64,000 nucleotides of DNA from Desulfatibacillum sp. (lineage in GTDB: Bacteria > Desulfobacterota > Desulfobacteria > Desulfobacterales > SpSt-501), in the NCBI GenBank assembly GCA_020725555.1, contig DYEU01000018.1, positions 267,113 to 331,112 of the forward strand, read 5' to 3'. Below the pieces are notes generated by a model. That model did no database searches and was not told the origin of the DNA. It was given only the letters and a program-made list of their open reading frames with translations. Of the stretch, positions 8,508-22,496 are shown one piece after another. Every line of letters begins with the position of its first letter. Position 1 is the first letter of the stretch. Made by a program: the position numbers and the translations under genes.

Positions 8508-10163
8508 TCAGGCGACGCGGACCTTGTAGACCTCGTTGGAGTCCGGATCGATCACGTGCACGGCGCAGGCGATGCAGGGATCGTAGGAATGCACCGTGCG
8601 CAGGATCTCCAGCGGCCGCTTGGGATCGGCGATCGGAGTCCCGATGAGGGCCTCCTCCACCGGGCTCATCTTGCCGGCCGCGCAGCGGGGAGCCAGGTTC
8701 CACGTCGAGGGCACGACGTACTGGTAGTTCTTGATCTTCTTGTTCTCGATCACGATCCAGTGGCCGAGGGCGCCGCGGGGGACGTCGTTTAAGCCCACGC
8801 CCTGGGCCTTGTCGGGCATTTCGTAGGGCTCGTAGGTCTTCGTGTCGCCCTTCTTGATGTTCTCCACGAGCTCCATCACCCAGCCCTGCATGGCCTCGCC
8901 GATGACGAGGGTTTCGATCCCCCGCGCCGCGGTGCGGCCGAGGGTCGAGAAGAGCGCCTCGGCGGGGATGTTCAGGGTCTTCAGGACGTGATCGACGGGC
9001 TGTTTCCACTCCTTCTGACCGTACGCGTAGCCCACGAGCACGTGGGAGAGCGGTCCGACCTCGCAAGGCTCGCCCTCGTAGCGCGGGGCCTTGAGCCAGG
9101 AGTAGCGGCCGTCCTTCGAGTCGGTGTCGTACTTCGGGTCGCCCTGGATCGGCTTGGTCTCGCCCTGGTAGGGGTGCCGCGCCTGGGCGCCTTCGTACCA
9201 GGAGCGCGCGACGTGCTCGGTCACCTTCCCCGGGTCGGCCATGACCGGCTTCTCGAGGTTGCGTTTGAAGATCACGCCGCGCGGCATGAAGAGGCTCTCG
9301 GGCTCCTTGTCGCTTGCCGGGAAATCGCCCCAGGCGAGGAAGTTCGTCGTGCGGCCGATCCCGCCCCAGTCCTTGTAGAAAGAGGCGACCGCGAGCAGGT
9401 CGGGGATATAGACGTTTTTGACGAACTCGTGGGTTTCCTTGGTGATGTAGAGGAACTCGGCGATGCGCTCGGCCGTCAGGTCCGCCGCGCAGGTGACCCC
9501 GCCCACGACGAGCGACTGGGGATGCGGGTTCTTGCCGCCGAAGATGGCGTGCATGCGGGCGGCCTTCGCCTGCAGGCGCAGGGCCTCGATGTAGTGCGCC
9601 GCGGCGAGCAGGTTCGCCTCCGGCGGCAGCTTGTAGGCCGGGTGGCCCCAGTAGGCGTTGGCGAAGGGGCCGAGTTGCCCGCTTTCGACGAAGGTCTTGA
9701 GCCGCTGCTGGACGTTCTTGAAATAGTTCGTCCCGCCCCAGGGCGCGTTGCTCACGTTGTCGGAAAGCGCGGCCGTCTTGGCCGGGTCGGCCTTGAGGGC
9801 GCTCACCACGTCCACCCAATCGAGCGCGTGGAGGTGGTAGAAATGGACGATGTGGTCGTGCTGGTACTGGGCGCCGAGGAGCAGGTTGCGGATCAGGCGG
9901 GCATTTTTGGGGATCTTCACCTTGACGGCATCGTCCACCGCGCGCACGGAGGCGATGGAATGCACGTAGGTGCAGACGCCGCAGGAGCGCTGGACGAAAT
10001 GGTGGGCGTCGCGGGGGTCCCGCCCCTGCAGGATGACCTCAATCCCGCGGAACATCTGGCCCGAGCTCCAGGCGTTCACCACCTTGCCGCCGGACACTTC
10101 GACCTCGATGCGCAGATGCCCCTCAATCCGGGTGATCGGATCGACGATGATGCGTTCGGCCAT
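8508..10163 (-). CDS. hynA: [NiFe] hydrogenase large subunit, periplasmic uptake type
   Basis: Catalytic subunit of a group 1 [NiFe] hydrogenase; splits H2 at the NiFe(CN)2CO centre. The four nickel-ligating cysteines are present: RSCGVC near the N-terminus (Cys61, Cys64) and DPCIACAVH at the C-terminus (Cys530, Cys533). His536 marks the cleavage site, leaving a 15-residue tail to be removed by the protease encoded next. There is no signal peptide, so it is co-exported with the Tat-tagged small subunit. A GGAGGAG ribosome-binding site precedes the ATG. Naming of subunits (HynA/HynB/HydB) varies between organisms. Confidence 0.96.
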   Translation of the reverse strand: MAERIIVDPITRIEGHLRIEVEVSGGKVVNAWSSGQMFRGIEVILQGRDPRDAHHFVQRSCGVCTYVHSIASVRAVDDAVKVKIPKNARLIRNLLLGAQYQHDHIVHFYHLHALDWVDVVSALKADPAKTAALSDNVSNAPWGGTNYFKNVQQRLKTFVESGQLGPFANAYWGHPAYKLPPEANLLAAAHYIEALRLQAKAARMHAIFGGKNPHPQSLVVGGVTCAADLTAERIAEFLYITKETHEFVKNVYIPDLLAVASFYKDWGGIGRTTNFLAWGDFPASDKEPESLFMPRGVIFKRNLEKPVMADPGKVTEHVARSWYEGAQARHPYQGETKPIQGDPKYDTDSKDGRYSWLKAPRYEGEPCEVGPLSHVLVGYAYGQKEWKQPVDHVLKTLNIPAEALFSTLGRTAARGIETLVIGEAMQGWVMELVENIKKGDTKTYEPYEMPDKAQGVGLNDVPRGALGHWIVIENKKIKNYQYVVPSTWNLAPRCAAGKMSPVEEALIGTPIADPKRPLEILRTVHSYDPCIACAVHVIDPDSNEVYKVRVA

Positions 10164-10205
10164 GTCATCTCCTCCTTGAAGATATTGGAATCGCCGTCCG
10201 GCGGA

Positions 10206-11150
10206 TCAGAGTTCCTGGTAAAAGGGGGTGAACTTGTCCCAGAATTCCGGCTGGCTGCACCCGATGCAGGGCGCCCCGGCCTGGACCGGCCAGCTGCAGC
10301 CGCTGTTGAACTTCACGATGCCGCAGTTGTTGTAGGTCTCCGGGCCCCGGCAGCCGACCTTGTAGAGGCAGTAGCCCAGCGCCGCTTCCTTGGAGCCGAA
10401 TTCCTCGACGAACTCGCCGTTTTCGAAGTGCCCCCGCCGCGGGCAGTTGTCGTGGATCGTCTGGCCGTAGGCGAAGAGCGGCCGGCCCAGGTCGTCCAAT
10501 GCGGGCAGCTTGCCGAGGAGGAGGTAGTTGACCACCGTGCCCACGAAGTTGATGGGGTTGGGCGGGCAGCCGGCGATGTTCACGGTCTTGATGCCGAGCG
10601 CCTCGCCGACCCCCTTGTAGCCGCCGGGGTTGGGTTTCGCCGCCGGGATGTTCCCGAAGGCCGAGCAGCTGCCGATGCAGATCACGCCGGCCGCCTTGGG
10701 GCAGACCTCCTTGGCGATCTGGAGAAAGCTCTTGCCGCCGACCTTGCCGTAGCCGCCGTTGTACTTGGTCGCGATCGCCCCCTCGACCACGCAGATGAAC
10801 TGCCCCTTGTTCTTCTCGACCGCCTCGTGCAGGGCCTCCTCGGCCTGGTGTCCGGCCGCGGCCATGATCGTCTCGTGGTAGGCGACGTCCAGGACCTCGA
10901 GGACCAGCTCGTCGATCCAGGGGTACATGCTGCGCAGCAGGGCCTCCGAGCAGCCCGTGCACTCGCCGAAGTGCAGCCACACGACCGTCGGCCGCTTGGC
11001 CGGAGCCGCGAAGACCTCGGCGACCTTGGGCACGAAGGAGGAGGAAAGCCCCATCGTCGCCGTGAGAAAGGTGCAAAACTTCATGAAATCCCGCCGGGTG
11101 ACGCCCTTCTGTGCCAGCCTTTCGTAGAACGCCTTCTCCTGGTTGACCAT
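10206..11150 (-). CDS. hynB: [NiFe] hydrogenase small subunit with Tat signal
   Basis: Electron-transfer subunit with three iron-sulfur clusters. The 314-residue precursor has a twin-arginine motif TRRDFMKF (Arg19-Arg20) followed by a hydrophobic stretch, so the enzyme is exported folded. Proximal-cluster cysteines start at ECTGC (Cys64, Cys67). The two supernumerary cysteines of oxygen-tolerant enzymes (the CTCC pattern) are absent. Distal and medial ligands lie in HDNCPRRG and the cysteine-rich C-terminal region ending PCIGC. There is no C-terminal membrane anchor and no cytochrome b gene next door, so a soluble periplasmic enzyme feeding a cytochrome c is likely. The ATG at 11150 is preferred over an upstream GTG that overlaps the GGAGG site. 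Confidence 0.95.
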   Translation of the reverse strand: MVNQEKAFYERLAQKGVTRRDFMKFCTFLTATMGLSSSFVPKVAEVFAAPAKRPTVVWLHFGECTGCSEALLRSMYPWIDELVLEVLDVAYHETIMAAAGHQAEEALHEAVEKNKGQFICVVEGAIATKYNGGYGKVGGKSFLQIAKEVCPKAAGVICIGSCSAFGNIPAAKPNPGGYKGVGEALGIKTVNIAGCPPNPINFVGTVVNYLLLGKLPALDDLGRPLFAYGQTIHDNCPRRGHFENGEFVEEFGSKEAALGYCLYKVGCRGPETYNNCGIVKFNSGCSWPVQAGAPCIGCSQPEFWDKFTPFYQEL

Positions 11151-11156
11151 TTGCAC

Positions 11157-11349
11157 CTCCTTGATGCGCTTGTGGATCGTACCCCGGGCCCGGCTTCGGC
11201 CGGATCGTTGTCGCCTCCCGACGGAAACCCTCCGGCGGGAGGGGCAGAGACTCCCACGACCTCCGCGGCGTACCCCGCTGCGCGCTGTCGGCCCGCTGCG
11301 GGGGCCTCAAAGCACGACGCCCGGCCGTCGGCCGGGCGTCGCTGCGCGG
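11157..11349 (-). other. Structured leader region upstream of the hydrogenase operon
   Basis: These 193 bases hold no gene. On the plus strand they include a perfect 12-bp hairpin (11315-11341), a CCCTCC/GGAGGG hairpin (11228-11243) and several smaller palindromes. I see no convincing sigma-70 or sigma-54 promoter for the hydrogenase here, although one is expected. Confidence 0.5.
11315..11341 (-). terminator. Hairpin after the 158-residue acidic protein gene
   Basis: Perfect 12-bp stem (CGACGCCCGGCC with its complement) and a 3-base loop, 8 bases past the stop codon. Only a short T-rich patch (TGCTTT) follows on the minus strand, so termination may be partial and help separate this gene from the hydrogenase operon. 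Confidence 0.55.
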
Positions 11350-11826
11350 TCAACTCTCGTCGTCGATGTCGACGAACTCGTCGTCTTCGATCTTGAGCGA
11401 GGAGTCGATCTTGCTCACCTCTTCGCCCTCCTCGAACTTCTCCTCCTCGAGACCGGCGTCGAGCAGCTCGTCGATCTCGGGGACCTCGGCCTCGTAGACG
11501 ACGGCCGCGGCCGCGGTGTCGGGCGCACGGGAGAGAAATTCCAGGTCGTCGAACACGAGCTCGGCGGTTTCCGGGCCGCGGCTCCCGAGCATCTGGGCCA
11601 CCTGGTCCGCGATCCGGCCGGCGTAGAGGGAGGGGGGATAGAGGTTCTTGGTGCGCAGGGCGCGGATCAGCGCCTCGCGGCCGGCCGCTTGGGCCGCCTT
11701 GAGGGTTTTGCGCTCGTAGCTTTCCTCGCAAAGAAGCGACATCACGTCCTTGTCGAGCTCGGCGTATTCGCGGATGAGGATGCGCCGCCCGTCGTCGTCC
11801 TTCAATATCTCGTACTTCTGCTTCAT
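11350..11826 (-). CDS. Conserved-looking acidic protein of unknown function (158 aa)
   Basis: I do not recognise this protein. It is soluble, with a mixed alpha-helical N-terminal half that starts MKQKYEILKDDD and contains the basic patch ESYERKTLKAAQAAGREAL. The C-terminal 45 residues are extremely acidic (many Glu and Asp, ending DIDDES). There is one cysteine and no signal peptide or membrane segment. Codon use matches its neighbours. It has a promoter candidate (11888-11914) and a terminator hairpin, so it appears to be a single-gene unit between the hydrogenase operon and the tRNA-Ser pair. Confidence 0.75.
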   Translation of the reverse strand: MKQKYEILKDDDGRRILIREYAELDKDVMSLLCEESYERKTLKAAQAAGREALIRALRTKNLYPPSLYAGRIADQVAQMLGSRGPETAELVFDDLEFLSRAPDTAAAAVVYEAEVPEIDELLDAGLEEEKFEEGEEVSKIDSSLKIEDDEFVDIDDES

Positions 11827-11887
11827 GAGGGTTCTGTCCTTGACGAAGTGCCTGTGAAATCGGGAGATCGGAGGAATGCAAGCGCCT

Positions 11888-11914
11888 TCTATACCGTTCT
11901 CCCGCCCCTGTCAA
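11888..11914 (-). promoter_or_regulatory. Promoter candidate for the 158-residue protein
   Basis: Minus-strand TTGACA (11914-11909) and TATAGA (11893-11888), with a rather short 15-base spacer. Both boxes are good matches, and the gene start lies about 60 bases downstream. Confidence 0.5.
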
Positions 11915-12010
11915 CCGGGGGAGCCATTGAACGGCTCGGGGGGTAAAAGAGGCCCGGGATGCCGGGAGCGCTCGCGGCCCGAGGGGCCCCGCGCGATCGG
12001 GCCCGTCGCC

Positions 12011-12038
12011 TTGACCTTGCCGCCCCGGGGATGATAGA
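12011..12038 (+). promoter_or_regulatory. Promoter candidate for the tRNA-Ser pair
   Basis: TTGACC (12011-12016) and GATAGA (12033-12038) with a 16-base spacer, 15 bases ahead of the first tRNA. Position fits a tRNA promoter. Confidence 0.5.
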
Positions 12039-12053
12039 AGAGAAAATTCAGCC

Positions 12054-12141
12054 GGAGGGATGGCTGAGCGGTCGATAGCGGCGGTCTTGAAAACCGCTTC
12101 CCGGAAACGGGACGCAGGTTCGAATCCTGCTCCCTCCGCCA
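12054..12141 (+). tRNA. tRNA-Ser (anticodon UGA)
   Basis: Full class II cloverleaf of 88 bases with encoded CCA. Acceptor arm GGAGGGA pairs with TCCCTCC. The anticodon loop CTTGAAA gives UGA. A long variable arm (CCCGGAAACGGG) and the TTCGAAT T-loop are present. It reads UCA and, by wobble, other UCN serine codons. Confidence 0.97.
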
Positions 12142-12155
12142 GAGAATGCGCCCAC

Positions 12156-12248
12156 GGAGAGATGGCCGAGTAGGTCGAAGGCGCTCGCCTGCTAAGCGAG
12201 TATACTCCGAAAGGGGTATCCCGGGTTCGAATCCCGGTCTCTCCGCCA
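12156..12248 (+). tRNA. tRNA-Ser (anticodon GCU)
   Basis: Class II tRNA of 93 bases with encoded CCA, 14 bases after the first. Acceptor arm GGAGAGA pairs with TCTCTCC. Anticodon loop CTGCTAA gives GCU for AGC/AGU serine codons. It has a long variable arm and a TTCGAAT T-loop. Probably co-transcribed with tRNA-Ser(UGA). Confidence 0.97.
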
Positions 12249-12282
12249 CCCCTCTCTTGTTGCCGCGGCCCTCCCCGCCTCG

Positions 12283-13020
12283 TTAGAGCTTCATCCGCAG
12301 CGCATGGACGCGTCCGCTCGCCGCCTCGCGGATCTGCAGCCGCAGGGTGTCCGCCGAGGCCGCCTCGCCGGGGAAGAACAGAAACCCGAAGGAGAGCCCC
12401 TGGGGGTCGACCGCGCGGTTTTCGAGCGATTTGCGGTTGAGATCCTGGATGATCTTGCGGCGGGCCTCGTCCGAGGTGTAGCCCTTCGCCCCGCCTAAGG
12501 TCGCCCCTGCGGCGCCGCCCACGGCGGCACCCTTTCCCGTCGCGACGGCGACGTTCTCGCCGGTGACGATGCCCACGGCCGCCCCGATGATCGCGCCGGC
12601 GGCCGCCCCCAGAACGCCGTGGTAGGCCCCCTCGCTGACGATCTCCTTGGTCTGCGCGTAACGCGTGGCCCGCTCGTAGGCCGTGTCGCGGTCAAGCAGC
12701 GGCCAGATGTTCCCCTGCCCGTCCTCGAGGAAGGTCTGGCCGGAGACGATCTCGAGCGGCTGGGTCCCGCGGTGGTCGAAGATCACCTGCACCGGGAGCA
12801 TGCCCGCCTCGCGGATGTCGAACCCGAAGGCCTCCCGCGCCAGGGCGGGGTCGGCGAAGGACTCGGCCGCCACCGTGGCCCCGGCAACCTCGACGGCGTT
12901 CGGGTAGGCGGCGGGCGACCGGAAGGGCATCGGCTTGGCGACGTAGGCGGTGGAACACCCGGACACCGCCCAGGCGAGGACCAAGGCGGCGACGGCCGGC
13001 ACTCTGAACGAAGCGTTCAT
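12283..13020 (-). CDS. Glycine-zipper lipoprotein
   Basis: A 245-residue envelope lipoprotein of unknown role. The signal peptide ends in AVSGC (Cys21), a lipobox. The middle, about residues 120-185, is a run of small residues with repeated AxxGAxxGxxxG spacing (GAAAGAIIGAAVG and GGAAGATLGGA), the glycine-zipper pattern of proteins that insert into or span membranes. The N-terminal half resembles an envelope beta domain; the tail ends VHALRMKL. Its own promoter lies at 13074-13102 and an AAGGAG site precedes the ATG. No named homologue is recognised. Confidence 0.8.
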   Translation of the reverse strand: MNASFRVPAVAALVLAWAVSGCSTAYVAKPMPFRSPAAYPNAVEVAGATVAAESFADPALAREAFGFDIREAGMLPVQVIFDHRGTQPLEIVSGQTFLEDGQGNIWPLLDRDTAYERATRYAQTKEIVSEGAYHGVLGAAAGAIIGAAVGIVTGENVAVATGKGAAVGGAAGATLGGAKGYTSDEARRKIIQDLNRKSLENRAVDPQGLSFGFLFFPGEAASADTLRLQIREAASGRVHALRMKL

Positions 13021-13073
13021 GGGGGGGCTCCTTGGGCGGCGGCGGGGTTGCGGTCCGCCGCACGGCATGGCTG

Positions 13074-13102
13074 ATTGTTTCCACGGCGGAAGGCTTTGTC
13101 AA
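13074..13102 (-). promoter_or_regulatory. Promoter for the glycine-zipper lipoprotein
   Basis: Minus-strand TTGACA (13102-13097), 17-base spacer, AACAAT (13079-13074). A strong match, about 55 bases before the ATG. Confidence 0.65.
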
Positions 13103-13159
13103 CCTCCCGGTGTCCCGGGAAACGGCGGAGGCCGCGGGGGGCCGGGGCGGGAACGGCAA

Positions 13160-13181
13160 GGGCCGCCCCGGGGGGCGGCCC
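13160..13181 (-). terminator. Terminator-like hairpin after the sat operon
   Basis: GGGCCGCCCC and its complement form a 10-bp stem with a 2-base gap, about 34 bases past the last gene of the sulfate module. A weak TTG follows, so it may be Rho-assisted or a 3'-end stabiliser. Confidence 0.5.
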
Positions 13182-13214
13182 TGCCTCGATGGTTGCGGCC
13201 CGGGCCGCGCGGTG

Positions 13215-13511
13215 TCAGTAGTTCTTGAGGAAATCGTCCATGATGTCGATCGACTGCTTCTGGACGACGAGGTCGAAGATCTTGTCCTTCACCTGGCGCG
13301 GCAAAAGCTCGATGCTCTTGGTCGTCGCGCTGTCGAACTTGGCGGTCGGGAAGACCTTGAGGATCTTGTCCTTCTGGGCGTCGTTGCAGTACACCTGGAT
13401 GCACTTCAGCCCGGCCAGCATCTCCTGGCACATCGCGGCCAGGCCCGCCTTCTGCAGTTTCTCGTAGCGCTCCTCGTTCACCCACAGATTGATCGGATAT
13501 TTCTCGGACAT
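13215..13511 (-). CDS. Small protein of unknown function linked to sat (98 aa)
   Basis: A 98-residue soluble protein that I cannot name. It starts MSEKYPINLWVNEERY and holds three cysteines (28, 37, 42), a C-terminal run rich in Lys, Asp and Ile, and the ending DDFLKNY. It follows sat by 13 bases and so is co-transcribed with it. The ATG at 13511 is preferred over an upstream GTG because a GGAGG site overlaps that GTG and stands 8 bases before the ATG. Position suggests a role tied to sulfate activation, but the sequence shows no catalytic motif. Confidence 0.85.
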   Translation of the reverse strand: MSEKYPINLWVNEERYEKLQKAGLAAMCQEMLAGLKCIQVYCNDAQKDKILKVFPTAKFDSATTKSIELLPRQVKDKIFDLVVQKQSIDIMDDFLKNY

Positions 13512-13524
13512 ATCGGTCACCTCC

Positions 13525-14784
13525 CTAGGCCAACGGCGGCATCACGAACACCGGGGTGCGTTTCTTCAGGTACTCCTCCTCGACGAAGGGCGAGCCGAAC
13601 CCGTACTTCTCGGCGCATTCCAGCACCAGGTCGAAGACCTCGGGCCGGAAGATCAGCCGCGGCGGTTTGACCCCGTCCTGCACGATGCTGCGGATGAGGG
13701 TTCCCGAAAACTTCTGCCACTCCTTCTTGTGGTTGCAGAGGCTCTCCGAGGTGATCTCGCCGCAGTGCGGGCAGTAGAGCCAGTTCTCGGAATAGACGGG
13801 GACGATGTTGATCTCGCCCTTCAGGCTCTCGAGCAGGCGATGGGCGTCGTAGGCGCCGTAGTAGGTGCCGACCCCCGCGTGGTCGCGGCCGAACATGTGG
13901 TGGGTGAGGCCGAGGTTCGTGCGCAGGGCCGCGTGGAAGACGGCCTCGCGCGGGCCCGCATAGCGCATGTCCCAGAAGGTGAGCGAGGTGAGGTGGTTGT
14001 GGTCGCCGAAGTAGCCCGACTTGCGCAGCTCGTCCTGGGTGAGGATGATCGCCTCGTCGATGTAGTCGCCCTTGCGCTTCTCGCCGATGATCGCGTTGAC
14101 GAGCACCCCGACGTAGGGCTTGTCCATCGGCAGCTCGCCGTAGGTCTGGAACCAGGCGCCCTTCATGAGCCACTCGTGCCCGGTGTGCGGGACGTTGCGC
14201 GTCTGGTGGGCGACGATGCGCTTCCAGCCCTTTTCCTTGAAGATCCTGCGCAGCTCAAGCGGGGGCAGGAAGTAGGGGGTGAAGGGCTCGTTGATCTTGG
14301 GCCGGTTGACGAGCGTGATCTTGCCGCCGACGAACTTGTCCTTGTAGGCGTAGGTGCGGGCGCAGCCGGGGTGCTTCGCCTCGTCGGTGCCGTAGACGTC
14401 CTTGGCGAGCGACTTCTTGTCGTACTCGTAGACCTCCTCGATCTCGAAGATCGCCATGGGGTTCCCGGTGTAGGTGAGCAGAAGGGAGGCCCCGGGCTTG
14501 ACCCCGTACTCGGCGATCTCCTCCTTGGACATGTCGAAGACGATGGGGATGCTCCAGACGGTTTTCCCGTCCTTGAGGCGCATCTTCTTGCAGACCGACT
14601 CCACGTCCGCCTTGCCCATGAAGCCCTCGAGCGGGCTGAAGAAGCCGTAGGCGATGTCGATCACCTCGTTGGCGAGCTGGCTGCGGATCGGGTACTGCTT
14701 CAGGCCCTGGATGCGCTTCTTGGCCTCCGCCGGTTCGAGGATCCTCTCCTTGATCTCCTTGCCGCCATGTCCGATTTCGGCCAT
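13525..14784 (-). CDS. sat: Sulfate adenylyltransferase (dissimilatory ATP sulfurylase)
   Basis: Activates sulfate with ATP to adenosine 5'-phosphosulfate, the first step of sulfate reduction (or the reverse in oxidising or disproportionating metabolism). The 419-residue protein has the catalytic HQTRNVPHTGHE block (Gln194, Asn197, His200, His203), GRDHAG at 298-303, and a probable zinc site with Cys337, Cys340 and Cys349. It is a single-domain bacterial/archaeal type without an APS kinase domain. A strong GAAAGGAGG site precedes the ATG, and a promoter candidate lies at 14869-14897, so it can be expressed apart from qmo. Confidence 0.97.
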   Translation of the reverse strand: MAEIGHGGKEIKERILEPAEAKKRIQGLKQYPIRSQLANEVIDIAYGFFSPLEGFMGKADVESVCKKMRLKDGKTVWSIPIVFDMSKEEIAEYGVKPGASLLLTYTGNPMAIFEIEEVYEYDKKSLAKDVYGTDEAKHPGCARTYAYKDKFVGGKITLVNRPKINEPFTPYFLPPLELRRIFKEKGWKRIVAHQTRNVPHTGHEWLMKGAWFQTYGELPMDKPYVGVLVNAIIGEKRKGDYIDEAIILTQDELRKSGYFGDHNHLTSLTFWDMRYAGPREAVFHAALRTNLGLTHHMFGRDHAGVGTYYGAYDAHRLLESLKGEINIVPVYSENWLYCPHCGEITSESLCNHKKEWQKFSGTLIRSIVQDGVKPPRLIFRPEVFDLVLECAEKYGFGSPFVEEEYLKKRTPVFVMPPLA

Positions 14785-14868
14785 ACCGTGCGTTCCTCCT
14801 TTCTCAGGGTGTCGGATGCGAATTCGCGTGCCCGGGGGCACGGGGCTGCTCGTTCGGGGGGAAGGGAC

Positions 14869-14897
14869 TTTCTACCCCGGCGGCCGGGAAAAGGCAA
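14869..14897 (-). promoter_or_regulatory. Promoter candidate for sat
   Basis: Minus-strand TTGCCT (14897-14892), 17-base spacer, TAGAAA (14874-14869). It lies between qmoC and sat with an 85-base leader. The same TAGAAA -10 is used upstream of tRNA-Gly. Confidence 0.5.
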
Positions 14898-14932
14898 GCC
14901 TATCCGCCGCTTGCCCTCCAGGTCCTGCAGGG

Positions 14933-16081
14933 TCATCGCCTTTCCGCGTACTCCGCGTAGGCCATGGCGACCGTGCGGTAGACGAGGTGGGCGAGCTTCG
15001 AAAAGGGGAGATAGGCGAAGGTGAACCACACGAGCATCAGGTGGATGAAATAGACGGCGTAGGAAACCCCCGCCCAGCCGGCGAGCCGCGTGAGCTGCGC
15101 CCCCATGCCCGTCACCCCCAGGCCGAGGACCAGCCCGAGCAGGAGCCAGTCCTTGTAGACCGATTTCTGGTCGGGCTTGGCGAGCCGCTGCCGGATGAGG
15201 AGGATGCTGCCGACGATGAGCGCGACCCCGCTCACGTTGGCGAGCCACTTCACGGGGTTGAGCTGCGAGTAGGGCCCGTGCTGCTGGAAGACGTAGATCG
15301 CGACGAAGAAGATCGAGGTCACGATGAATAGCCCGATGAAGGAGAGCAGCACCAGCATGTGCGAGACCGCCCGCGCGCGGTTTTCGGTGCACTCGTTGAA
15401 CTTGGCGTGCCGGAGGATCACGGGGATCGTGCGCAGGAGCGCCTGGAGGAACCCGGCGGAGTCGATCGCTTCCTTGGCGGTTTTCCCCTCGGCGAGCGCG
15501 TTGCGGTGGATGTCGCCGAGAAAGCGGCTCACCCCGCGGGCGAACACGGCGACGGCGAAGGCCGCGGCCGAGAGCATCACCACGTCGACGAGCCAGGTGG
15601 ACACCATCTTCGCGTGGACGATCGCCCCCTCGGGGCTGAAATTGAGGAAACGCGCGCCGAAGATCTTCTCCATCAGGAAGCCCATGACGACGAGGTAGAC
15701 GGCGGGGACGAGAAGCAGCACGGGGAGCATCGCCGGCGTGTTCATGGCCCGGGCGAGCGCCCGGGGCGCGGCGTATTCCTCGACCGCCCGCGCGCGGATC
15801 GCGGCGAGCACGTCCCCCGGCTTGGCCTGCCGCGGGCAACGGGTGTTGCAGTCGCCGCAGTTGTGGCAGAGCCAGGGGTCGGCGCTCTGCACCAGACGCT
15901 CTTTCAGGCCCCAGGAGGCGGCGATCATCTCCTTGCGCGGAAAGGGCTTGTTCTGGGGCGAAATCGGGCAGACCACCGAGCAGGTGGCGCACTGGTAGCA
16001 CTTCTTGAGGTCCTCGCCGCCGAGGATCCCCACCTCCCGGATGAAGTCGAGATCGGGTTCCACCACGAGTCGTTCGGTCAT
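14933..16081 (-). CDS. qmoC: Quinone-interacting membrane-bound oxidoreductase subunit QmoC
   Basis: Membrane subunit of Qmo, which passes electrons from menaquinol towards APS reductase. The 382 residues start with a HdrC-like domain with two [4Fe-4S] motifs: Cys28, 31, 34, 38 and Cys72, 75, 78, 82. A HdrE/cytochrome b-like domain follows with about six hydrophobic segments between roughly 113 and 365, for haem and quinone binding. It ends the qmo operon, separated from qmoB by a 78-base gap with a very stable hairpin. Confidence 0.97.
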   Translation of the reverse strand: MTERLVVEPDLDFIREVGILGGEDLKKCYQCATCSVVCPISPQNKPFPRKEMIAASWGLKERLVQSADPWLCHNCGDCNTRCPRQAKPGDVLAAIRARAVEEYAAPRALARAMNTPAMLPVLLLVPAVYLVVMGFLMEKIFGARFLNFSPEGAIVHAKMVSTWLVDVVMLSAAAFAVAVFARGVSRFLGDIHRNALAEGKTAKEAIDSAGFLQALLRTIPVILRHAKFNECTENRARAVSHMLVLLSFIGLFIVTSIFFVAIYVFQQHGPYSQLNPVKWLANVSGVALIVGSILLIRQRLAKPDQKSVYKDWLLLGLVLGLGVTGMGAQLTRLAGWAGVSYAVYFIHLMLVWFTFAYLPFSKLAHLVYRTVAMAYAEYAERR

Positions 16082-16159: not shown

Positions 16160-18493
16160 TCAGAAGCCCTTGAAGGGGTTCGGCCCCAGCCCCTCGATCG
16201 TGCCGACGAAATCCTGGATCATCTGCGGAATCTTGTCGTACTCGTCGATCGCCACCTGGAACTGGGCGACGCGCTCGACCTCGAGGGCGAGGCTCGCCAG
16301 GGCCTCGCCGATCTTCTTGACGCGGATCTCGGCGAGCTCGCTGCCCTTGACGAAATGGCACTGGTAGTCGTCGCCGTGCTTGCAGCCCATCAGGAAGACG
16401 CCGTCCATGCCCTGGGAGAGCGCGTCCTTGATCCAGATCACGTTCACCGACCCCAGGCAGCGGACCGGGATGAAGCGCACGTCCGCGTTCCAGGAGAGCC
16501 GGTTGAGCGCCGCGATGTCGAGGGCGGGGTAGGCGTCGTTCTCGCAGACCAGCCCCAGGATGCGCAGCGGCGGCTCGTCGAAGTCGTCGGTCGAGGGCAC
16601 CTTGATCGCCTTGACCATCGAGCTGACGCTGTCGATGCTGTAGTTGGCGAAGTTGATGATGCGCTCGGGGCAGGCCCCCATGCAGGTGCCGCAGCGGCGG
16701 CAGCGGGTGGGGTTGGGCTTGGGGGTGCCGCGCTCGTCGTCGTCGAGCGCCCCGAAGGGGCACTCCTGGGTGCAGCGCTTGCACTGGGTGCAGCGCTGGA
16801 AGAAGAAGTCGGGGAAACTCATGTCCCCGGAACGCGGGTGGACCGAAACGCCGCGGCGGACCGACTCCAGGCACTGGATGGCCTTGAGCGCCGCCCCGGT
16901 CGCATCCTCCATCGCCTCCTCGGCGGTCATGCTGCGCCGCACCCCGCCCGCGGCGTAGATGCCCGTGCGCTGGGTCTCGTAGGGGAAGCAGATGTAGTTC
17001 GAGTCGGCGTAGTCGTCGAAGAGGGCGTTGTCGCGGAACCCGGGCCCCTGGCGGTAGGCCAGGTTGATCACGGGGTCGTCCTTGGTCGCCGGGACCATGC
17101 CGGTGGCCAGCACCACGAGGTCCGCGGGGATCTGGACGGGCTGCCCGAGGAGCGTGTCCTCGGCCTCGACCACGAGGCCCTTGCCGTTGCCGGCGACGCG
17201 GGTGACGCGGGCCTTGGTGAGGAAAACGCCGGGGTCCTGCTGCACCGCCTTGTAGAAGTTCTCGGTCAGCCCCGGGGTCCGCATGTGCTGGTAGAGGATG
17301 TAGGCCTTGCCGTCCGCGTAGTCCTCGCGCACGTAGGTCGCCTGCTTCAAGGCGACGAGGCTGGTGACGGAGGCGGCGTAGGGGAAATCCCGGTCGCCCT
17401 CGGGGCCCGGGCTCTGGACGAAGACCACGGATTTCGCCTCCCGGCCGTCGCTCGGGCGCGTGATCTTCCCGCGGGCGGCGAGCTCCTCGAACTGCTCGTT
17501 GGTGACCACGTCGGGGAGGGTCCCGAAGCCGAGATGCGCGAACTCCCCTTCCGCCGGCCGGTAGGGCCGCCAGCCCGCGGCGAGCACCACGGCCCCGAAT
17601 TTCTCGCCGTGGGGGTCGAAGGTGAGGATGTCCACCTTGCCCTTGTTGTACTCCTTGTAGCGCTCGAGGAGCTGGTCGGCCTCGAGCTCCTTGCCGTTCT
17701 CGTCGACCCGCAGCTCCGGGGGCAGCGGGTAGGGCACGTCGAACTCGATCTGCTCGCCGGGTTTCTTGAAGGTCACGGTGAAATCCCCGGGCTGGCCGGC
17801 GATGCGCGCGACCACGGTGTTCGTGCGCACCGTGATCCGCGGCTCGGCCTCGAGCTCGCGCAGCTTCTCCGCCAGCACCGGAGCGGCCGGCTTGTCGTAG
17901 GGGTACCCCAGGGGGAGCTGCTTGCGCCAGCTGCGCGCGTGCCCGCCGAGGGCGGCCTCCTTTTCGACCACGACCACCTCGTAGCCGGCGCGCGCCGCCT
18001 CGAGGGCGGCCGTGATCCCCGTCAGCCCCCCGCCGATCACCAGGATGCGGCGGCTGAGGGTCTCGAGCCGGTAGGGCTCGGGGAGCTGGATCTTCTCGAC
18101 CTTGGCGAGGCCCATCTTCAGGTAATCGGAGGCCATCATCTGGACGTGGTCGATGAAGCTCGCGTCGTCTTTCTGTTCCTCCGTCGGCGCCGGCCACACC
18201 GAGCGCGGGTGGGACCAGACCACGTGCTCGCGGAGGTTCACCCGCTCGACGATGCAGCCGTCGAAGCGGAAGGTGTCGTGGAGCACGCGGGGCGAGCAGG
18301 CCGCGATCACGAGCGTGTTCACGCCGGAGGCGACCTCCGCCTTAAGCATCGCCACCCCCTCGCGGCCGCAGAGGACGGGCGAGGTCTTGACGGCGTAGCC
18401 CTCGTCGGAGGCGACGGCGCTCAGCTTTTCGATGTCGAGGGCCTCGGCGATGCCGCAGCCCTGGCAGATGTACACACCGATCTTCTTGTTCAT
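16160..18493 (-). CDS. qmoB: Quinone-interacting membrane-bound oxidoreductase subunit QmoB
   Basis: Flavoprotein of the Qmo complex, HdrA-like. Over 777 residues it has an N-terminal CQGCG and ACSPR region, an FAD-binding motif VIGGGLTGITAA near 152, two ferredoxin [4Fe-4S] motifs (CTQCKRCTQECP and CRRCGTCMGACP, about 565-610), and a C-terminal MvhD-like domain including MGCKHGDDYQC. It lies 10 bases after qmoA with a GGAGG site. It is thought to work in the cytoplasm with QmoA against the AprBA reductase. Confidence 0.97.
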   Translation of the reverse strand: MNKKIGVYICQGCGIAEALDIEKLSAVASDEGYAVKTSPVLCGREGVAMLKAEVASGVNTLVIAACSPRVLHDTFRFDGCIVERVNLREHVVWSHPRSVWPAPTEEQKDDASFIDHVQMMASDYLKMGLAKVEKIQLPEPYRLETLSRRILVIGGGLTGITAALEAARAGYEVVVVEKEAALGGHARSWRKQLPLGYPYDKPAAPVLAEKLRELEAEPRITVRTNTVVARIAGQPGDFTVTFKKPGEQIEFDVPYPLPPELRVDENGKELEADQLLERYKEYNKGKVDILTFDPHGEKFGAVVLAAGWRPYRPAEGEFAHLGFGTLPDVVTNEQFEELAARGKITRPSDGREAKSVVFVQSPGPEGDRDFPYAASVTSLVALKQATYVREDYADGKAYILYQHMRTPGLTENFYKAVQQDPGVFLTKARVTRVAGNGKGLVVEAEDTLLGQPVQIPADLVVLATGMVPATKDDPVINLAYRQGPGFRDNALFDDYADSNYICFPYETQRTGIYAAGGVRRSMTAEEAMEDATGAALKAIQCLESVRRGVSVHPRSGDMSFPDFFFQRCTQCKRCTQECPFGALDDDERGTPKPNPTRCRRCGTCMGACPERIINFANYSIDSVSSMVKAIKVPSTDDFDEPPLRILGLVCENDAYPALDIAALNRLSWNADVRFIPVRCLGSVNVIWIKDALSQGMDGVFLMGCKHGDDYQCHFVKGSELAEIRVKKIGEALASLALEVERVAQFQVAIDEYDKIPQMIQDFVGTIEGLGPNPFKGF

Positions 18494-18503
18494 GATCGAC
18501 CTC

Positions 18504-19778
18504 CTACCGTCTCACCACGGTCTGAATCGCTTTGAGGGCCATGCCGGTCGCGTTCTGGTTCGAGGAGACGACGTCGGCCGGTTTCGCGGCACAGCCCGCC
18601 GCGAAGAGGCCGGCCTCGGGCGCGTTCAGGATGAACCCCTCGGGGGTCGTCCTGACCGCGGCCGGCGGCTTGTGCACGGAGGCGGTCGGCTGCATGCCGG
18701 TCGCGAGCACGACGAGCCCGACCGTCTGCTCGATCTTCTCGCCGGTCACGGCGTTCTCCGCGACCACGGTGAGGTCGCCCGTCTTCGGGTCCTCGGAGAC
18801 CTTGGCCACCTTGCCCTTGATGAAATGGACGCGCGGGTCCTGCTTGATCCGGTCGTAGAAGCGCTCGTAGCGGTAGCCCGGCGCGCGCAGGTCGATGTAG
18901 AAGATGTAGATTTCGGCCTCGGGGCATTTTTCGCGCACGTAGGTCGCCTGCTTGAGGCTCGCCATGCAGCAGATGTAGGAGCAGTAGGCGAGGTGGTTCT
19001 CGTCGCGGGAGCCGGCGCACTGGACGAAGGCGACGCTCGCCGGCGGCTTGCCGTCCGAGGGCCGCACGATCGCGCCCGCCGTCGGGCCGTTGAGGGCGGC
19101 CAGGCGCTCCATCATCATGTTGGTGAGGATGTTCTTGTGCCGGCCGAAGCCGAGGTTGTCGATCTTTTTGGCGTCGTAAGGCACCCAGCCCGTGGCCCAG
19201 ACCACGGCCCCCACGTTCAGCCGCAGGCTCTTCGGCTGCATCTCGAGGTCGACGGCGTCGTAGCGGCAGGCCTCCTTCACCCGGGCGGCGTCCTCGGTGC
19301 CGAGAATCCGCGGGTCGATCACGTAGCGCGCGGGGAAGGCCATGGCGAAGGGCAGGTAGGCCGCCTTGACCGTCTTCATGCCGAAGTCGAATTCGCTGGG
19401 GATCTCGGTGCGGCAGGCCTCGGCGCAGGCCCCGCAGCAGGTGCAGTTCTCGTTCACGTAGCGGGGGTGGACCTTCACCGCGACGGTGTAGTCCCCGGGC
19501 TTTCCCTCCACGCGCTCCACCTCGGCCATCGTCAGGACCTGGATCTTCGGGTTGTCCTTGATGCGCCGGAAGTTGATCTCCAGCCCGCAGGTCGGCGGGC
19601 AGAGCTTGGGGAAATACTGGTTCAGCTGGGCGACGCGGCCGCCCAGGTAGGGGTTCTTCTCGACCAGGAAGACCTCGTAGCCGACCTCGGCGGCCTCGAG
19701 CGCGGTGGTGAGCCCGCTGATGCCGCCGCCGACGACCAGGATGGTGCCGCTTGCCGGGGCTGCTTTTTCCTCACTCAT
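18504..19778 (-). CDS. qmoA: Quinone-interacting membrane-bound oxidoreductase subunit QmoA
   Basis: HdrA-like FAD subunit of Qmo, 424 residues. FAD motif VVGGGISGLTTALEA at 15-29, a conserved CPPTCGLEINFRR segment, a cysteine cluster CTCCGACAEAC near 110-120, and a CSYICCMASLKQATYV block. It heads the qmoABC operon. A 230-base gap with the apr terminator and a 14-bp hairpin separates it from aprA, so it should have its own promoter, which I could not identify. Confidence 0.97.
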   Translation of the reverse strand: MSEEKAAPASGTILVVGGGISGLTTALEAAEVGYEVFLVEKNPYLGGRVAQLNQYFPKLCPPTCGLEINFRRIKDNPKIQVLTMAEVERVEGKPGDYTVAVKVHPRYVNENCTCCGACAEACRTEIPSEFDFGMKTVKAAYLPFAMAFPARYVIDPRILGTEDAARVKEACRYDAVDLEMQPKSLRLNVGAVVWATGWVPYDAKKIDNLGFGRHKNILTNMMMERLAALNGPTAGAIVRPSDGKPPASVAFVQCAGSRDENHLAYCSYICCMASLKQATYVREKCPEAEIYIFYIDLRAPGYRYERFYDRIKQDPRVHFIKGKVAKVSEDPKTGDLTVVAENAVTGEKIEQTVGLVVLATGMQPTASVHKPPAAVRTTPEGFILNAPEAGLFAAGCAAKPADVVSSNQNATGMALKAIQTVVRR

Positions 19779-20008: not shown

Positions 20009-21985
20009 TTACGGGATGAGCTTGATGTAGTCCTTCTTGAAGATGTCCCACTTGCCCGCCTTGGGATCGTACTTCGAGTTCACGAAGCAGAACCAGTTCG
20101 CGTCGTCCTGGCCGGGGTAATCCATCTGGTAGTAGAAGCCCGGGTAGCGGGTCTCCTTGCGGAACTGGATGTGGCGCAGGTGCGACTCGACGGTCCAGAT
20201 GCGGTGGATGATCTCCCAGGCGCGCATCAGCTCGTGGAGGTCGCCGGCGGCGAGTTTCTCGCAGTCCTCGCGCATCATCTGGAGCATCTCCATGACGATC
20301 TCGAGGTTCTTGTTGTTGGTGGTGTAGAAGGTGGCCGTGCCGGCGCCGTACTCGTGGGTCGCCTTCATCATGCGGTACATCATGCCGTTCGGCTTGATGT
20401 AGTTGGGGTTGATGTCGTCGGCCGTGGTGTAGGCGGCGTACTGCAGGTAGGTGCGCACCGGCTTGTAGACCAGGTCGACGATCTGCTCCTTGGTCATCGG
20501 CAGCTCGGGCTTGAAGTCCGCGTGGTCCTTCGCGTAGCGCACGAGCTGCTTGGCCGCGATGCGCCCCTCGGCGTGCGAGCCGGAGGAGAACTTGTGGCCG
20601 GAGCAGCCGACACCGTCGCCCGCCGTGAAGAGGCCGAAGACGGTCGTCATGCGGTTGTAGACCTTGCCGTTGTCGGCCTTGATCTTGTAGGACTCGGGCA
20701 CCCAGTCGAAGTCCGGGCCCGAGACCCAGAACCCGCAGCAGCCGGAGTGCGACCCGAGGAGGTAGGGCTCGGTCGGCATGATCTCGGAGTTCTTCTTTTC
20801 GGGCTCGGTGTTGGTCGCGCACCAGAGGTTCGCCTGGCCGCAGGTCATGTCGAGGAAGTCCTCCCACGCCTCGGACTCGAGGTGCTTGAGGTCCTTCTTG
20901 TCCATGGTCTTGGCCAGCTCGGCGAGCGCCGTCACCGTGTCCATGAGGATCGGCCCGCGGCCTTCCTTCATCTCAAAGAGCATGAGGTGGTTGCGCAGGC
21001 AGGTCGGGGTGATGGCCGCGGTGCCGTAGGGGGCGTACTTCTGGAGCTCCTTCTTCGCCGCCTCGGAGGCCGCGTAGTTCTCGCCCAGGCCGTTCAGCGA
21101 TTTCGCCTTGAAGAGCAGGTACCAGGCGCCGACCGGGCCGTAGCCGTCCTTGAAGCGCGCCGGCGTGAAGCGGTTTTCCATCATGGAGAGCTCGGCGCCG
21201 ACCTTCATGCCGAGGTAGTAGGTGGAGCCCGAGTTCCACACCGGGTACCATGCGCGGCCCTTGCCCTCGCCGACCGAACGCGGCTGGTAGATGTTCACCG
21301 CGCCGCCGCAGGCGATCAGGCAGCTCTTGCACTTGAGAATGTAGACCTTGTTTTCGCGCACCGAGAACCCGGCCGCGCCGGCGATCTGGTTGGGCCGGTT
21401 CTTGTCCAGGAAGAGCTCGACCACGAAGACGCGCTCGAGGATGTTGGTGTCCCCGATCGCCTTCTTGGCGGCCTCGGCGACGATCCGCTTGTAGGACTCG
21501 CCGTTGATCATGATCTGCCACTTGCCGGTGCGCACCGGCTTGCCCCCCTGCTTCAGGGTGCCCATTTTGAGGCCTTTTTTGCCGTCGAGGGTCTTGCCGG
21601 CCTCGTCCTTCTTCCAGATGGGCAGACCCCACTCCTCGAAGAGCCACACGGAGTCGTCGACGTGGCAGCCCAGGTCGAAGATGAGGTCTTCGCGCACGAT
21701 GCCCATGAGGTCGTTGCGGACCATGCGCACGTAATCGTCGGGGGTGTTCTCGCCGATGTAGGTGTTGATCGCCGAGAGGCCCTGCGCCACCGCGCCGGAG
21801 CGCTCCAGGGCGGCCTTGTCCACCAGGAGCACCGTCTGGTTGGGCTCCATCCACTTGCGCACCTCGAAGGCCGCGCCGCATGCGGCCATGCCGCCGCCGA
21901 TGATGAGGATGTCGACTTCCTTCTCGACCACTTCGGGGTCCTTGACGGCCTTCAGCTCGCCCTTGGGTTTGTTCGGCAATGCCAT
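20009..21985 (-). CDS. aprA: Adenylylsulfate (APS) reductase alpha subunit
   Basis: FAD catalytic subunit that reduces APS to sulfite and AMP. The 658-residue protein shows the fumarate-reductase-type FAD motif DILIIGGGMAACGAAFE near 25-41, SGAVAQGLSAINTY, SCLIACGGAVNIYQP, and HSGCCGFWVSGPD, all hallmarks of AprA. It pairs with AprB, encoded 70 bases upstream in the same operon. Full length; ends DYIKLIP. Confidence 0.98.
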   Translation of the reverse strand: MALPNKPKGELKAVKDPEVVEKEVDILIIGGGMAACGAAFEVRKWMEPNQTVLLVDKAALERSGAVAQGLSAINTYIGENTPDDYVRMVRNDLMGIVREDLIFDLGCHVDDSVWLFEEWGLPIWKKDEAGKTLDGKKGLKMGTLKQGGKPVRTGKWQIMINGESYKRIVAEAAKKAIGDTNILERVFVVELFLDKNRPNQIAGAAGFSVRENKVYILKCKSCLIACGGAVNIYQPRSVGEGKGRAWYPVWNSGSTYYLGMKVGAELSMMENRFTPARFKDGYGPVGAWYLLFKAKSLNGLGENYAASEAAKKELQKYAPYGTAAITPTCLRNHLMLFEMKEGRGPILMDTVTALAELAKTMDKKDLKHLESEAWEDFLDMTCGQANLWCATNTEPEKKNSEIMPTEPYLLGSHSGCCGFWVSGPDFDWVPESYKIKADNGKVYNRMTTVFGLFTAGDGVGCSGHKFSSGSHAEGRIAAKQLVRYAKDHADFKPELPMTKEQIVDLVYKPVRTYLQYAAYTTADDINPNYIKPNGMMYRMMKATHEYGAGTATFYTTNNKNLEIVMEMLQMMREDCEKLAAGDLHELMRAWEIIHRIWTVESHLRHIQFRKETRYPGFYYQMDYPGQDDANWFCFVNSKYDPKAGKWDIFKKDYIKLIP

Positions 21986-22055: not shown

Positions 22056-22496
22056 TTACTTCACGAGCTCTTTGGGCCGCGGGATGGCGCGGTTTTCCGC
22101 CTCTTCGGTCGCCAGGAGCGGGCTCTCCAGGTCCTTGCCCTTCAAGGATTCGTAGGCATTGGCCGCCCCCTCGGGAGTGGTCCGGATGGGGAACTTGAAG
22201 CGCTTGATCAGCCCGTTGCGGAACTTGCAGGTCCACATGATGTCCTCGGTGCCGAGCATCGGCATGATGCTGCTCCCCAGGGGAACGAAATCGGCGTACC
22301 CGCGGACCTCGATCGCCTGCGTGGGGCAGATCTTCACGCAGGAGAAGCACTCCCAGCACTGATCGGGCTCCTGGTTGTAGGCCTTCATCGCCACCGGGTC
22401 GAGGACCATGAGGTCGTTGGGGCAGATGTACATGCAGGCGGTCTTCTCGCCGCCCTTGCAGCCGTCACACTTTTCCTGAATGACGAAACTCGGCAT
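22056..22496 (-). CDS. aprB: Adenylylsulfate (APS) reductase beta subunit
   Basis: Electron-transfer subunit of APS reductase with two [4Fe-4S] clusters. The 146 residues start MPSFVIQEKCDGC and continue KTACMYICP, then CWECFSCVKICP for the second cluster, followed by the AprA-binding tail. It heads the apr operon. An AAGGAGGT site lies just before the ATG, and a promoter candidate sits about 240 bases upstream. Confidence 0.98.
   Translation of the reverse strand: MPSFVIQEKCDGCKGGEKTACMYICPNDLMVLDPVAMKAYNQEPDQCWECFSCVKICPTQAIEVRGYADFVPLGSSIMPMLGTEDIMWTCKFRNGLIKRFKFPIRTTPEGAANAYESLKGKDLESPLLATEEAENRAIPRPKELVK

Follow-up and report, generated by a model that had tools for sequence, protein, structure and literature searches.

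A DUF6955 protein encoded directly behind sat is a candidate accessory protein for a particular group of ATP sulfurylases

In a 64,000-nucleotide stretch of DNA from Desulfatibacillum sp. (contig DYEU01000018.1), hereafter the window, the gene directly behind sat encodes a 98-residue protein of the Pfam family DUF6955. We found that this protein and its closest relatives pair with sat, and with one group of Sats rather than with Sat in general, two observations that are both well supported. On balance, sequence comparisons make it probable, with modest confidence, that the type A protein found in the window is a dedicated accessory protein that would bind and modulate an archaeal-type Sat with the signature QxRN-VP-HxGH. 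The family was already known as a Pfam DUF; what is new here is its division into sat-linked types A and A2 and a type B found near dsr genes, together with the tie to one Sat group. An unnamed DUF thereby becomes a testable part of a central sulfur-cycle pathway.

A conserved gene closing the sulfate module

The sulfate module occupies the minus strand of the window and has the transcription order aprB, aprA, qmoA, qmoB, qmoC, sat and DUF6955 gene. It begins with aprB (22056..22496), which encodes the 146-aa beta subunit of APS reductase and was assigned from its reading frame and from homologues adjoining aprA in relatives, and aprA (20009..21985), an ORF for the alpha subunit, supported by a TIGR02061 match of genome G000 at the corresponding place. 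The HdrA-like qmoA (18504..19778) was named by its domains and gene order, and the HdrA2-like qmoB (16160..18493), with its FlpD domain, by domains and position between qmoA and qmoC, while qmoC itself (14933..16081) matches NF038018 with 474 bits, over a cut-off of 300. The 419-aa Sat (13525..14784) is over the cut-offs of both NF003166 and TIGR00339, and its start was placed, with a ribosome-binding site, at the ATG following AAAGGAGGAACGCACGGT; the longest ORF would begin at 14841.

As an earlier note on this DNA had described, the module ends with a gene for a 98-residue, three-cysteine protein (Cys28, Cys37 and Cys42), which runs on the minus strand from an ATG at 13511 to 13215. The 13 bases separating the sat stop codon from this ATG, starting GGAGGTGA, confirm the spacing given in that note and supply the ribosome-binding site it mentioned, a Shine-Dalgarno-like GGAGGT (13519..13524, minus strand). 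Codon use is normal, as also claimed: the codon adaptation index (CAI) of the ORF is 0.733, and the five genes used as the reference set (sat, qmoC, qmoB, qmoA and aprA) score 0.715-0.841 against themselves. Operon-like codon use is confined to this frame: the two alternative frames on the same strand have CAI values of 0.061-0.085, and those on the opposite strand 0.044-0.46. Natural read-through from sat is impossible in the window, since the 13-base gap shifts the frame, and an apparent sat-DUF6955 fusion in one relative (G129, a 558-aa open frame) was rejected because its upstream frame differs from that of sat.

Downstream of the gene lies a G+C-rich hairpin (13155..13185, minus strand) which, having no T run, is only possibly the end of the operon; an intrinsic terminator is not supported, as the terminator scan has no entry for this hairpin and its folding z-score against shuffles is -1.33. 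The next gene on the same strand (12283-13020) encodes a glycine-zipper lipoprotein-like protein, and a similar gene flanks a sat of the other kind at locus L266. Two tandem tRNA-Ser genes (anticodons TGA and GCT) are found nearby on the plus strand (12054-12248).

The whole length of the protein matches Pfam family PF22271 (DUF6955; profile positions 1-91 of 91), with 117.5 bits against a cut-off of 27 and an E-value of 3.1e-34. Among its homologues, dN/dS ranges from 0.018 to 0.119 (median 0.059) in the 15 of 20 pairs that were measurable, the other five being saturated at synonymous sites and left out, which at the sequence level indicates strong purifying selection on the protein. Because of this low dN/dS and the Pfam match, the ORF is a real gene and not a chance one. 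The description of the protein as one of unknown function stands insofar as the Pfam entry carries no function, but the family had already been named. NCBIfam gave no match for the window protein, and a sequence search of the PDB gave only chance matches, with E-values of 1.2 and above. A literature search, with most subscription journals outside its scope, returned no paper naming DUF6955 and no report of a gene that follows sat or lies within a sat-aprBA cluster.

The best of five AlphaFold2 models, built from 18 sequences, has a mean pLDDT of 92.7 (78.2-92.7 across the five) and a pTM of 0.84. It consists, in order, of a strand, a helix, two strands, a helix, a long loop, a helix and a short helix. 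Against the PDB, the best Foldseek match of this model has an E-value of 0.4, with none at or below 0.001, and the best VIA-align Z-score is 2.6; these fold matches give no hint at a mechanism. The three cysteines, put forward as a feature in the earlier note, proved to be no family trait. Among 34 type A sequences, Cys28 is present in 17, Cys42 in 14 and Cys37 in one; beyond type A, Cys37 occurs in three of 27 A2 sequences, and neither Cys28 nor Cys42 was seen in A2 or B. A cysteine-based redox or metal protein was rejected on account of this variability. The most conserved stretch is instead F54-P71 (window numbering), which includes a conserved Thr/Ser/Lys-rich segment (A57-S66) and D60, a residue kept in all A and A2 sequences and in 19 of 20 B sequences.

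Pairing with sat and with one group of Sats

We searched 395 genomes from the phylum for DUF6955 and obtained matches in 75, of which 74 are over the cut-off. By alignment, the 81 loci over the cut-off fall into 34 of type A (the window's kind), 27 of type A2, whose proteins are longer (118-134 aa), and 20 of type B; a weak 82nd, in G206, is below the Pfam cut-off and was excluded from these counts. The gene lies directly behind a same-strand sat in 60 of the 61 A/A2 loci, with a gap of 11-95 bases, and the 61st locus is cut by a contig end. Five further loci (G397, G404, G418, G426 and G436) show the same arrangement. The starts of the homologues were picked with a preference for Shine-Dalgarno-like sequences, whose presence is thus partly circular and not evidence. 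On the other side of the gene, aprB follows directly in 27 of the 61 loci; elsewhere sat and the DUF6955 gene stand alone within the 6 kb examined or, as in the window, lie behind qmoC, and in G418, G426 and G436 the pair is tail to tail with qmoC. Since sat is constant and the downstream neighbors vary, the constant unit is sat plus DUF6955.

Of the 58 genomes with A/A2, 57 have sat and 57 have aprA (counted at or above about 1e-150, which gives 161 genomes, 159 of them over the curated cut-off). One miss is G298, in which aprB comes after the gene, close to where the contig ends; the other is G163, whose gene is itself located at a contig end. A/A2 occurs in none of the 164 genomes lacking both sat and aprA, and among the 70 with sat and no aprA match only G298 does; the Fisher test on this distribution treats related genomes as independent. 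A separate search of the genome_contigs set, in which the organisms partly overlap, found sat directly upstream in 16 of 17 loci, the 17th starting at a contig end. Therefore, the synteny with sat that the earlier note had proposed to examine was found across the phylum, and the pattern it had named as speaking against a partner of sulfate activation, homologues mainly away from sat or in organisms without sulfate metabolism, was not seen for A/A2. Its suggestion that the protein would be such a partner if found beside sat elsewhere is partly supported, by the 60 loci and by the near-constant presence of aprA, but has to be narrowed to one Sat group and does not extend to paralogue B, which lies off sat.

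Outside the phylum set, 14 control genomes were searched, and only that of Sulfolobus acidocaldarius was over the DUF6955 cut-off. This genome carries sat and gave no match to aprA at 1e-60. The viral contigs searched gave no DUF6955 match. The plasmid collection yielded a single one, 81.5% identical, in an unannotated 21.8-kb record filed as a Klebsiella pneumoniae plasmid (NZ_CP061967.1:19001-19276); this contig was probably misassigned and comes from a sulfate reducer. The 1998 description of the Archaeoglobus fulgidus locus reportedly places orf2, a hypothetical protein of about 117 residues, between sat and aprBA; its length and place would fit type A2. QmoD of Desulfovibrio was likewise considered as a relative; the f50 genomes G040 and G076 gave no DUF6955 match. 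In Thermosulfurimonas dismutans, sat has locus tag 1516 and aprA/aprB have 1513/1514, with one tag in between (PMC4911364), a spacing that would fit sat-DUF6955-aprBA.

The proteins co-vary as well. Across the 26 loci with aprA at hand (14 A and 12 A2), the partial rank correlation of DUF6955 distances with those of Sat, beyond AprA, is 0.77, a value reached in 0 of 1000 permutations, and the correlation with AprA beyond Sat is -0.10. For the 12 A2 loci alone the corresponding values are 0.87 and -0.17, and for the 14 A loci 0.40 and 0.42, which gives no separation.

DUF6955 A/A2 pairs with a particular group of Sats. In a first tree of 108 rows, from which G094 and G182b were left out, the 59 DUF-linked Sats (33 A and 26 A2) form one side of a single branch (length 1.72, SH-aLRT 100), inside which A-linked and A2-linked Sats separate; none of the 49 Sats without DUF6955 falls within this group. 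Because these 49 were mostly high scorers, we built a second tree with low scorers added (126 rows, again without G094 and G182b, and without the fragments n_G316x, n_G047 and n_G142 and 11 near-identical rows). It places 52 DUF-linked Sats on one side of a branch of length 1.6 (SH-aLRT 100) and none of 74 Sats without DUF6955 inside the group, which the n_G251 Sat adjoins on a very long branch. Both are quick trees in which SH-aLRT is the sole support and long branches meet, and they include only a sample of the Sats without DUF6955. Searched against 71 genomes without A/A2, the window Sat found a match in 67, none above 40% identity; A2-type Sats are themselves merely 37-42% identical to it, and identity alone is therefore no sorter of Sat kinds.

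Specific residues do distinguish the group, in which 28 Sat columns are nearly invariant that are rare outside it. At the clearest of these, position 203 within the active-site motif, all 59 DUF-linked rows have V, whereas all 77 others have P. The window Sat reads QTRN-VP-HTGHE at this motif, and the VP signature of the group recurs in all five additional DUF-linked sat loci and in none of 110 other sat loci, of which 76 have P in place of V and 34 are off-pattern. In the closest solved Sat, that of Methanothermococcus, the motif is QTRNVPHLGHE, which places this enzyme in the same archaeal-like kind. In genome data, DUF6955 may serve to mark one Sat kind out of two or more.

These kinds replace each other even within the window's genus, for which seven genomes were compared. 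Two of them (G000 and G397) have sat and DUF6955 behind qmoC, and four (G395, G396, G398 and G399) have at the same site an oppositely oriented sat of the other kind and no A/A2; the seventh (G400) gives no answer. Where the contigs hold the genes, identity is 83-85% for qmoB (G395, G396 and G398) and 91-92% for aprA (G396 and G398), and by eye the far-side genes of G398 resemble those at 11350-11826 and 12283-13068 of the window. This pattern implies exchange of the pair as a single cassette, the aprBA-qmoABC locus around it being otherwise conserved. The swap of two Sat kinds at one qmoC-flanking site can be seen by setting loci L266, L267, L268 and L269 beside window positions 13215-16081. 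Duplicates tell of the pairing too: three genomes (G074, G107 and G136) each have two sats of the DUF-linked group, every one with its own DUF6955, and in G129 and G211 an extra Sat of the other kind adjoins aprBA with no DUF6955 there.

Possible roles of the DUF6955 protein

Sat carries out the first step of dissimilatory sulfate reduction, a reaction that is strongly uphill and inhibited by its own products, and a constant partner may explain what drives this step or how its APS is handed on. The DUF6955 gene, lying directly after sat, is presumably part of the same transcript, and its product would bind Sat, which we propose because binding is the simplest reason for such a pairing. Binding would then modulate the enzyme, perhaps through the conserved F54-P71 stretch as a working surface; the most likely effect would be faster turnover, or quicker APS release and hand-over towards AprAB, the direction of the effect being presumed. 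This reading is modeled on DsrD, an allosteric activator of DsrAB (PMC10591310). We favor a modulating effect on turnover or APS release because the Sat reaction is uphill and product-inhibited, because DsrD sets a precedent in the same pathway and because DUF-linked Sats differ around the active-site motif. Against an accessory role stands the fact that other Sats work without DUF6955. The recombinant Methanothermococcus Sat is active on its own, forming a homodimer; a coupled assay in which pyrophosphatase was limiting gave 0.07 U/mg (PMC10322725). Hence DUF6955 cannot be a general requirement for basic catalysis across this kind of Sat.

Like DUF6955, DsrD is small and its gene accompanies that of a key enzyme of dissimilatory sulfate reduction; it also offers a precedent for an accessory activator (PMC10591310). 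It differs in its partner, DsrAB rather than Sat, and the two sequences are unrelated: DsrD (PF08679) is absent from the Pfam matches of the window protein up to an E-value of 1, whereas a true DsrD, at locus L143, matches at 2.3e-33. Another accessory of an ATP sulfurylase belongs to a different enzyme. CysN is the GTPase partner and accessory subunit of CysD, an ATP sulfurylase of a family other than PF01747; in contrast, DUF6955 is no GTPase by Pfam, and the window Sat belongs to PF01747.

The same pairing could also arise if DUF6955 were an assembly or stability factor that aids Sat folding, zinc binding or stability and has no part in catalysis. This would suit the C..C..C zinc-type motif found in 59 of 59 DUF-linked Sats and in 57 of 77 others, and the many A2 genomes that are small and Thermodesulfobacteria-like (a name presumed from their gene content and size). 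We nonetheless consider it unlikely, as DUF6955 has no conserved metal ligands, its cysteines being variable, and as the homologous methanogen Sat folds and is active when produced alone (PMC10322725). Also unlikely is a carrier or adaptor, which would bind APS or some other sulfur oxyanion, or else link Sat to AprAB, with APS passed on instead of released. The conserved Thr/Ser/Lys-rich segment, the presence of aprA in nearly all A/A2 genomes and the placing of aprB directly next in 27 loci speak for it, the last of these being compatible with a function at the Sat-Apr contact or one involving AprAB; type B copies near dsr genes, in 13 of 20 loci, would fit oxyanion handling at both ends of the pathway. 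Yet the protein is tied to Sat rather than Apr: 60 of 61 loci have sat beside the gene, against 27 with aprB directly behind, the AprA correlation vanishes once Sat is accounted for (-0.10), and Sulfolobus has DUF6955 and sat with no aprA match.

An operon passenger, or a regulator that makes no contact with Sat, such as a sensor tuning expression of the module, seems highly improbable. It draws on the small size of the protein, on B copies sited elsewhere and on a Sat link read from sequence, but a neutral passenger would leave unexplained the joint exchange with Sat at a conserved locus, the paired copies in the three genomes with two DUF-linked sats and a dN/dS near 0.06, and no DNA-binding family in Pfam matches the protein.

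Type B copies near dsr genes

None of the 20 type B copies lies behind sat. The 13 loci with dsr genes within 6 kb belong to seven families, and dsrA, dsrB or dsrD is nearby in 12 of them, the remaining one (G368) having only a dsrN-like gene on a short contig; no dsr gene is found in any of the 61 A/A2 contexts. The window's own genome has a B copy, with no dsr gene nearby in the 18 kb examined. By location, this paralogue ties DUF6955 to the sulfite reductase step, and a broader and more tentative reading is that DUF6955 proteins might be small activators or sulfur-oxyanion handlers used twice, with A/A2 serving Sat at the start of dissimilatory sulfate reduction and B, next to dsrAB, serving the reduction of sulfite. 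On this view a protein partner would be required by archaeal-type Sat and would have been missed in decades of work because the enzymes studied lack DUF6955; we regard this reading as possible, though doubtful.

Seven B loci (L148 at 9718-14182, L098, L141, L145, L146, L151 and L154) share a one-strand order of ferredoxin, B, a 113-aa protein, a TPR protein, dsrA and dsrB. The 113-aa protein (L148:10539-10880) has no match in Pfam or NCBIfam and is 64-96% conserved in the six other loci of this order.
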